Of a stretch of 39,377 nucleotides of DNA, positions 28,731 through 30,287 are shown piece by piece (the first letter of the stretch is position 1; each line of letters starts with the position of its first letter). Under the pieces are notes generated by a model. It searched no databases. It worked only from the letters and a program-made list of their open reading frames with translations, and had not been told where the DNA came from. A program made the translations under genes and the position numbers. The DNA is taken from assembly GCA_007694095.1 (NCBI GenBank), contig RECI01000142.1, forward strand, positions 1 to 39,377, in the 5' to 3' direction. The DNA comes from Balneolaceae bacterium. GTDB taxonomy: Bacteria > Bacteroidota > Rhodothermia > Balneolales > Balneolaceae.

Positions 28731-28931
28731 CTATCCTTTTTTTGTGGAAAGACCAACCGGGATGTAAAGAGGGCAGATTCCAACTGCACTGGTTAGAAGA
28801 AATACTGCGGCAAGAACTCCTAAAATAATGGCTGCGGTGCCGGAAAGCACACCAGTGAAATACAATACTGCAACAATAATCGCGATTATTGTTCTGATGA
28901 TTCGATCGGTGGAGCCCATGTTTTTTTTCAT
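28731..28931 (-). CDS. DUF2892 (YgaP-type) small membrane protein
   Basis: A 66-residue protein with two hydrophobic helices (about 11-29 and 32-50) and the family signature ending VGICPLYIPVGLST. The opening GSTDRIIRTIIAI is typical of DUF2892, which also forms the membrane part of rhodanese proteins such as YgaP. It carries one Cys (C53). It is the last gene of the minus-strand operon headed by the GntR regulator, 10 bp after the 35-residue membrane peptide. A role in sulfur metabolism follows from family fusions and context. Confidence 0.85.
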   Translation of the reverse strand: MKKNMGSTDRIIRTIIAIIVAVLYFTGVLSGTAAIILGVLAAVFLLTSAVGICPLYIPVGLSTKKG

Positions 28932-28941
28932 GCTGTTATCC

Positions 28942-29049
28942 TTATTGAAAAGTGAAATGTTGAGTTAAAAAGGTGGAAATGGCAACTATCAACAGACAAA
29001 CCGTACATACAATTATCAATTTAAACCATTTCGGTTTATCGTGGAACAT
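28942..29049 (-). CDS. 35-residue single-helix membrane peptide in the sulfide operon
   Basis: A short frame from ATG (29047-29049) to TAA (28942-28944). It reads MFHDKPKWFK, then a hydrophobic helix (LIIVCTVCLLIVAISTFL, about residues 11-28), then TQHFTFQ. It sits 11 bp after the DsrE-like gene stop and 10 bp before the DUF2892 start, filling that gap exactly. It has two membrane-embedded cysteines (C15, C18, spaced CxxC). The positive N-terminus suggests N-in topology. No known family is recognised. The case for a real gene rests on spacing, a positive-then-hydrophobic design and the operon context. Confidence 0.6.
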   Translation of the reverse strand: MFHDKPKWFKLIIVCTVCLLIVAISTFLTQHFTFQ

Positions 29050-29060
29050 GACGGGTGCTA

Positions 29061-29486
29061 TTAAAATGTGAAATACCGAACATTATCCTGTTTCATGTAA
29101 CCTGCAACCTCGGGAGGGCTTGCAATGGTAACCCCGGGGATAAGGTCAGACTCGGTAAAATTTCTATTTGGCAGAAAAATACCGCAAACTTCAACCGTAA
29201 TGTCACGTTCAATCAAGCCGGTTAAAAGTTGTTTCGGGGAGCGGTTAGAAGGCGCAAAAACTGGTGAAGTATACTCTACAATGGCAAGATTGCCTGCTTC
29301 ACCACAAAGCAATATTCGAACAGCCACATCCTGGTTCACAGACTGAGTGGCAAGAACCATGGCCATCATTTGCGTTTCAGCATCAGCGGTGGTAATTACA
29401 ACAAAAAGTTCATTACCGGGGCTGTTTTTTTGAAAATCAATTGTTCCAAAAAGTAAAATAACAGCTAAGATTGAAAATACTTTCAT
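29061..29486 (-). CDS. Exported DsrE-like sulfur-relay family protein
   Basis: A 141-residue protein with a hydrophobic N-terminus (about 1-15) that could be a signal peptide, followed by a DsrE/peroxiredoxin-like fold. ELFVVITTADAETQMMAMVLA and VAVRILLCGEAGNLAI are the first two beta-alpha units, and DITVEVCGIFLPNRN carries the conserved Cys (C101); a second Cys is C61. DsrE-type proteins carry persulfide sulfur on this Cys. It starts 15 bp after the GntR gene ends, so they are co-transcribed. A periplasmic persulfide carrier is the most natural guess. The family call is moderately confident because DsrE relatives diverge strongly. Confidence 0.75.
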   Translation of the reverse strand: MKVFSILAVILLFGTIDFQKNSPGNELFVVITTADAETQMMAMVLATQSVNQDVAVRILLCGEAGNLAIVEYTSPVFAPSNRSPKQLLTGLIERDITVEVCGIFLPNRNFTESDLIPGVTIASPPEVAGYMKQDNVRYFTF

Positions 29487-29501: not shown

Positions 29502-30287
29502 TTATGATTTAAAAACCGGGGCAAAATCTTTTAATGGCATATCGGTACCTGATTTATCTTCGGGTGACCTTTCAAGCGTCATTTCGTATAATACCTTGTC
29601 GTTGCGATAAAAACGTTTCTGATAATAAAGTGGCTTGTGCCCTATTGTAAATGAGAGCCTGTCAATTAAAAACAACGGCGTATGTTGTTCCACTTGCAGT
29701 TCAGCGGAAAGTTGCTCATCTGACGGAACGGCCGACATCCGGTAAGATCCTTTTATGACCGGAATATCGTATTCTTTTTCCAGTATTGAATAGATGGTTG
29801 ATACTTCAAGTTGTTTTTCATTTAGCAGCTGTCCGTAAAAAACCGGCAGCCATGTAATGTCGTATGCAACCGGAGAGCCGTTTCCCAGCCGCAGCCGGTC
29901 TATCCTGAGAACTTTACATCCGTTGTCGATATGCAGTATTTCGGCAAGCCAGTCGGGAGCATTTACAGCCCCGAAATGCTTAACCTCAGAAGAAGGCACT
30001 AATCCTGCCCTTGCCATATCTTCGTTAAAATCGGTTAATTTAACGAGGTTGTGTGTTGCCCTGCCGTCGCTTACAAAAGAGCCAAGGCCCTGGCAACGGT
30101 ATATGATGGATTCACTTTCTAAAGATTGCAATGCCCTGCGAATGGTTACACGGCTAACGTCAAACTTTTTTGCCAGGTCGTTTTCTGATGGCAATTTCTG
30201 TTCGGGCTTGAATATACCCTCATCAATCTGTTTTCTAAGCCATTGTGAGATTTGGCTGTGTCTTGGTATTCCTTCTTTAAGCATCAT
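29502..30287 (-). CDS. GntR/HutC-family regulator (UTRA domain), probable sulfide-operon repressor
   Basis: A 261-residue regulator. Residues 8-75 form a winged helix (LPSENDLAKKFDVSRVTIRRAL is the recognition region), and about 95-235 is a UTRA effector domain ending in LYYQKRFYRND. It heads the operon with the DsrE-like, 35-residue and DUF2892 genes and diverges from sqr. A palindrome between the two genes (30336-30351) recurs before the YeeE/YedE gene and is the predicted operator. Only two cysteines are present: C65 in the wing (RCQGLG, where relatives usually have a basic residue) and C124 in UTRA. A thiol or persulfide sensing mode is possible but unproven. The start may be either Met of MM. 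Confidence 0.88.
   Translation of the reverse strand: MMLKEGIPRHSQISQWLRKQIDEGIFKPEQKLPSENDLAKKFDVSRVTIRRALQSLESESIIYRCQGLGSFVSDGRATHNLVKLTDFNEDMARAGLVPSSEVKHFGAVNAPDWLAEILHIDNGCKVLRIDRLRLGNGSPVAYDITWLPVFYGQLLNEKQLEVSTIYSILEKEYDIPVIKGSYRMSAVPSDEQLSAELQVEQHTPLFLIDRLSFTIGHKPLYYQKRFYRNDKVLYEMTLERSPEDKSGTDMPLKDFAPVFKS

Follow-up and report, generated by a model that had tools for sequence, protein, structure and literature searches.

Does the short gap between a DsrE-like gene and a DUF2892 gene, set in a sulfide operon, hold a gene of its own, and if so, with which neighbour does its product work? We addressed this question in a contig of 39,377 nucleotides from a Balneolaceae bacterium (RECI01000142.1, assembly GCA_007694095.1); this whole stretch is called the window here. 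The initial annotation had placed in the gap a 35-residue membrane peptide with a CxxC motif, and had given no strand. The frame is present on the minus strand, where it runs from ATG to TAA (29049 to 28942) and translates to MFHDKPKWFKLIIVCTVCLLIVAISTFLTQHFTFQ, 35 residues including C15 and C18, and the plus strand of the same interval is interrupted by a stop. The claimed spacings are exact: 11 bp separate the stop of the DsrE-like gene from the peptide gene, and 10 bp separate the peptide gene from the ATG of DUF2892. The two neighbours are also as claimed, each being matched by a Pfam model. The features concerned are as follows.

28942 to 29049, minus strand: gene for a predicted 35-residue CxxC single-pass membrane microprotein, supported by homologues and purifying selection
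28996 to 29007, minus strand: codons of C15-x-x-C18 (TGT ... TGT), from the sequence and from TGT/TGC exchange in relatives
28731 to 28931, minus strand: DUF2892 / YgaP-like transmembrane protein of 66 residues, the constant partner gene (PF11127, E=3.4e-21)
29061 to 29486, minus strand: DsrE-like protein of 141 residues with an N-terminal hydrophobic segment (PF02635, E=3.2e-6)
29502 to 30287, minus strand: GntR/UTRA transcriptional regulator, the first gene of the leftward cluster (PF00392, 2.3e-19; PF07702, 1.9e-29)

The leftward cluster has the order GntR/UTRA regulator, DsrE-like protein, peptide and DUF2892 protein. The divergent rightward genes encode an SQR-like oxidoreductase, two YeeE/YedE-type (Sulf_transp) proteins, a metallo-beta-lactamase/rhodanese fusion, a permease assigned by inspection to the SulP type, and a rhodanese.

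In a first survey, the DsrE-like protein served as the anchor in 59 related genomes, and the adjoining gap was translated. The equivalent gap in three relatives (G011, G003 and G006) encodes a 33-residue homologue, and P6, W8, K10, V14, C15 and C18 are invariant across the four sequences from the window and these relatives. DsrE-anchored loci without an intact DUF2892 gene were also without the peptide, and at four loci the DsrE-like gene is followed directly by DUF2892, with no peptide. A profile built from the four gap sequences found more members independent of position, and at the newly matched loci the short frame lies 9-40 bp before DUF2892. Considering that homologues occur in the gap of the relatives and in many other genomes, the frame is more than a product of chance. 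For five separate species pairs, counted by the Nei-Gojobori method, the pooled pN/pS was 0.34; column shuffles, which break the frame, averaged 0.78, and none of the 1000 gave a value as low; the differences at the first, second and third codon positions numbered 50, 21 and 69. The cysteine codons exchange TGT and TGC between relatives while the cysteine is retained, and this retention, together with the low pN/pS, shows selection on the protein. By these sequence comparisons, the 35-residue frame is a real gene, conserved at the protein level under purifying selection. The comparison of the same gap in relatives, proposed as a check by the initial annotation, thus came out in favor of the gene: length, helix and cysteines are conserved and the codon substitutions show purifying selection, the stops or frameshifts in close relatives that were to speak against it were not found, and some relatives are cleanly without the gene.

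The peptide of the window carries K5, K7 and K10 within its first ten residues, and its most hydrophobic 19-residue segment covers residues 11-29 (Kyte-Doolittle mean 2.76). C15 and C18 therefore fall within the predicted helix, close to its N-terminus, which agrees with the earlier description of a Lys-rich start, a single hydrophobic helix and a CxxC placed within the membrane. Among 43 aligned members, the CxxC cysteines are invariant (43/43), Lys or Arg stands five residues before the first Cys in 42, Leu or Phe occupies -4 in 41, Ile or Leu occupies +4 in 36, and Gln or Glu occupies +15 in 32; Val is mostly found at -1, and the other helix positions are mostly free to vary among hydrophobic residues. 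In the working alignment A5, the row of the G094 member is missing one Trp close to the N-terminus, and its core is correct. Ahead of the CxxC the members carry a mean net charge of +2.2, which falls to about 0 behind it. Considering this drop and the Lys-rich N-terminus, the positive-inside rule would place the N-terminus of the peptide in the cytosol.

Homologues of 28-35 residues were found at more than 50 loci, which are spread over Bacteroidota, Nitrospirota and Pseudomonadota, and the peptide of the window shows what defines this family, namely a length of 28-35 residues, one hydrophobic helix and the invariant CxxC. Profile A2 gave 29 credible matches at E<1e-5 in 394 Bacteroidota genomes. 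The peptide was found in 6/349 Pseudomonadota genomes and in 6/118 genomes of the phylum to which the Nitrospiria genome belongs. In a named set of 80 loci anchored on DUF2892, it is present in 17 and absent in 63, and the loci that bear it include Gracilimonas, Aureisphaera, Lentiprolixibacter, Robiginitalea, Saprospiraceae, Nitrospiria and a Muproteobacterium. Five pseudomonadotan genomes (L258-L262) hold a stand-alone member (e.g. MDKTMALKLLLACILCLSLITGAVFLFQWLTS) in varied contexts, not adjoining DUF2892, and the genomes with stand-alone members hold four or five PF11127 genes elsewhere. A candidate at L189 (G199) was rejected, being the signal segment of a cytochrome-like protein.

No sequence family of Pfam, NCBIfam, PHROGs or PDB fits the peptide. 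The earlier word "unannotated" is supported to the extent that no Pfam or NCBIfam model matches the peptide. Pfam, NCBIfam and PHROGs also gave weak matches (E>0.002) to SecE, DUF5326 and other models, each involving one or two members, and we set these aside as generic helix similarity. Profile searches of the PDB gave only chance matches for the peptide and no match for DUF2892. Among plasmids, 12 carry DUF2892; the two inspected have no annotated peptide gene upstream of it, and searches made directly with the peptide found no real match. In the papers on DUF2892 and YgaP, the passages naming these mention no such gene, subscription literature and current annotations lying outside this search. 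Accordingly, the peptide family, its linkage to DUF2892 and its invariant intramembrane CxxC appear to be undescribed, and membrane-protein partners consisting of one small helix are, as a kind, already well known.

CydX, KdpF and AcrZ are small subunits with a single helix, whose genes lie next to those of larger membrane proteins. The peptide resembles them in its size class (about 30-50 residues), its one helix and the position of its gene beside a membrane-protein gene, but it differs in having no family or PDB match, in its invariant intramembrane CxxC, and in a presumed partner of only 66 residues. The DUF2892/YgaP-like domain is likewise a small membrane protein with a Lys-rich N-terminus and a conserved helix-end cysteine, and it is linked to the peptide. 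However, PF11127 proteins have two helices and an MKKNMGxxD signature, whereas the peptide has one helix and a CxxC and gave no match to PF11127 (YgaP-like_TM). The CxxC dithiol is shared with thioredoxin-like proteins, but a single helix of 35 residues cannot form the thioredoxin fold. At four Flavobacterium loci (L104, L112, L121 and L155), a different small membrane protein with spaced cysteines is encoded about 25-30 bp upstream of DUF2892. This protein, of the DUF6132 type, has about 65 residues and a GC..GTC.IT motif and, by inspection, is not homologous to the peptide.

The constant neighbour of the peptide is DUF2892. In 28 of the 29 strong Bacteroidota matches (E<1e-5), the start of a DUF2892 gene on the same strand lies 44-242 bp beyond the centre of the match, and 13 of these 28 are non-seeds of the profile. 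Among the best 30 matches, 15 are non-seeds, and 13 of these 15 are placed upstream of DUF2892, for which chance would be about 5e-5 per match. In the exception, G094, the peptide gene follows a gene of the Crp family and faces an SQR-like gene, and DUF2892 is on another contig. Among the genomes that belong to another phylum or whose peptide does not adjoin DUF2892, seven were checked, and all seven have PF11127 genes. The gap between the two genes is 9-40 bp in most loci, and three loci (L215, L217 and L220) have 4-bp overlaps; this spacing suggests that the peptide and DUF2892 may be co-translated. No natural fusion of the two was found among 138 DUF2892 copies. Three in-frame CxxC extensions of DUF2892 were considered as fusions and rejected, as they look like non-coding read-through. 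The proposal that the peptide recruits neighbouring proteins is supported in part, DUF2892 being its constant neighbour; it is not supported for DsrE, which adjoins the peptide in only four Rhodohalobacter-group species.

A short frame close upstream, sometimes with a 4-bp overlap of the DUF2892 start, would also be expected of a leader peptide, translated only to control DUF2892 expression, with the two Cys codons serving, for instance, to sense the supply of cysteine. Such a peptide would act only in cis and its sequence would be largely dispensable, but we found a conserved Lys, a conserved hydrophobic helix and C-terminal Gln/Glu, exchange between TGT and TGC, purifying selection, and stand-alone members with no DUF2892 following. 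The leader role is disfavoured on these grounds, and we regard it as very improbable. The linkage to DUF2892 fits equally a structural or stabilising helix, whose cysteines would serve only for packing or for disulfide-linked dimerisation, and small subunits like CydX, KdpF and AcrZ commonly stabilise their larger neighbours. However, the cysteines are invariant while other helix positions vary, which suggests chemistry over packing, and we consider a purely structural role to be unlikely.

DUF2892 itself was found in 246/296 sampled Bacteroidota genomes. Most DUF2892 loci are without the peptide, including that of R. halophilus (L086), where the GntR gene is followed by DUF2892 with no peptide between them; DUF2892 must therefore work without the peptide there. 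On the DUF2892 tree, which is too short to resolve the number of peptide gains, the peptide label changes 19 times; the tree is poorly resolved, but at least five of these changes are forced by well-supported branches, indicating repeated gain or loss of the pairing. Three further observations concern DUF2892. At L005, the DsrE-like gene is followed by a truncated DUF2892 remnant (..FPLCPIYLPAGLSINK) and no peptide, so that in this relative the pair appears to have decayed. In Robiginitalea sediminis (L137), about 1 kb separates two DUF2892 genes, and the peptide is upstream of one only. A second cysteine, located in the C-terminal tail, is present in 13/17 peptide-linked DUF2892 proteins and 15/63 others (L080-L159; Fisher p=1e-4, relatedness uncorrected); the copy in the window is without it.

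In the initial annotation, the sulfide setting had led to the proposal that the membrane cysteines relay sulfur in a persulfide operon. In this explanation, the CxxC would take persulfide sulfur from the DsrE-like protein or from SQR/rhodanese proteins and pass it on. The window is consistent with it, as are about a dozen related loci, since the peptide stands there beside genes for GntR, YeeE/YedE, persulfide dioxygenase-rhodanese, SulP and sometimes SQR proteins; GntR and the sulfide island were found beside the peptide at 13 loci (one duplicate species included) of Rhodohalobacter and its relatives. However, the DsrE neighbour is confined to the four species mentioned above, and no constant linkage to DsrE, SQR, rhodanese or persulfide dioxygenase was found outside the Rhodohalobacter-type island. 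In the named set, rhodanese genes are near 1/17 peptide-bearing and 26/63 peptide-less DUF2892 genes (Fisher p=0.008, relatedness uncorrected), and dioxygenase genes are near 2/17 and 22/63, respectively, so that both are rarer where the peptide is present. In addition, the DsrE-like protein of the window (29061-29486, minus strand) begins with MKVFSILAVILLFG, a signal- or anchor-like segment, which suggests an exported DsrE-family protein. With this signal-like hydrophobic N-terminus, it may lie on the opposite side of the membrane.

Elsewhere, the neighbours of the peptide are varied. Crp-family regulators were found near it by clustering at 7 loci, a CopA-like P1B ATPase, assigned by inspection, lies immediately before the peptide-DUF2892 pair at two Balneolaceae loci (L198/G235 and L203/G184), the peptide at L200 (G188) follows a permease and a heavy-metal RND component of an efflux cluster, and other peptide loci have unrelated neighbour genes. 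Because of these varied neighbours and the lower frequency of rhodanese genes, the sulfide setting is local, and the peptide is not specific to sulfide operons. The earlier tie to DsrE and persulfide chemistry is not supported, and a sulfur relay of this kind seems improbable. The CopA-like ATPases and the permease with the RND component would suit a soft-metal site, in which the CxxC and the DUF2892 cysteine bind Cu(I) or another metal and hand it to transporters or shield it from them. However, metal genes occur in one Balneolaceae branch only and most loci have none, and this site is, in our estimate, quite unlikely.

What is described of the DUF2892 domain itself bears on the choice. DUF2892 corresponds to the membrane part of E. 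coli YgaP, in which a cytosolic rhodanese domain is followed by the two helices M114-V135 and L142-G160 (PMC4730233). The YgaP dimer contact is through TMH2, which ends with C159, a residue close to the SCN- binding site. This residue would correspond by position to the conserved Cys-Pro of DUF2892, which is C53-P54 at the end of TM2 in the window. Three other papers report a DUF2892 gene (Dsui_0042) that is up about tenfold in sulfide oxidation and whose deletion is mild (PMC5358917), one in the NnrR regulon that shares an operon with trxC (PMC6710368), and one within a microoxia-induced cluster (PMC5295598). Considering these reports on DUF2892 genes and the predicted cytosolic-side position of the CxxC, we favor an accessory single-pass subunit of DUF2892 that adds a dithiol near the DUF2892 cysteine, and give this explanation about an even chance of being correct. 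Weighing against it are the lack of any fusion among the 138 copies, the many DUF2892 loci that do without the peptide, the stand-alone members and G094, and the repeated gain or loss of the pairing.

Beside the observed gene, family, conservation and linkage, we infer for this accessory subunit a physical complex with a topology, a chemistry (thiol/persulfide or metal) and a physiological role as follows. The Lys-rich N-terminus would be cytosolic, and the single helix would begin just after the conserved Lys (K10 in the window). The CxxC would then occupy the first and second turns of the helix, in the cytosolic leaflet, and the peptide would add a third helix and a dithiol beside C53 of DUF2892. 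The resulting membrane-embedded thiol site could serve in persulfide transfer, disulfide redox or soft-metal binding, and may be used under sulfide, low-oxygen or metal stress. A bolder version, which we offer only tentatively and would not expect to hold in full, is a three-helix peptide-DUF2892 thiol module whose CxxC faces the Cys-Pro in the cytosolic leaflet, which moves sulfane sulfur or electrons at the membrane in answer to sulfide, nitric oxide, low oxygen or copper, and which was recruited repeatedly across phyla.

In summary, a gene of about 30 codons that is conserved across phyla can escape every curated family model. Repeated reports describe an induction of DUF2892 by sulfide, by signals of denitrification or at low oxygen, and an overlooked gene for a probable CxxC partner offers a concrete handle on its function.
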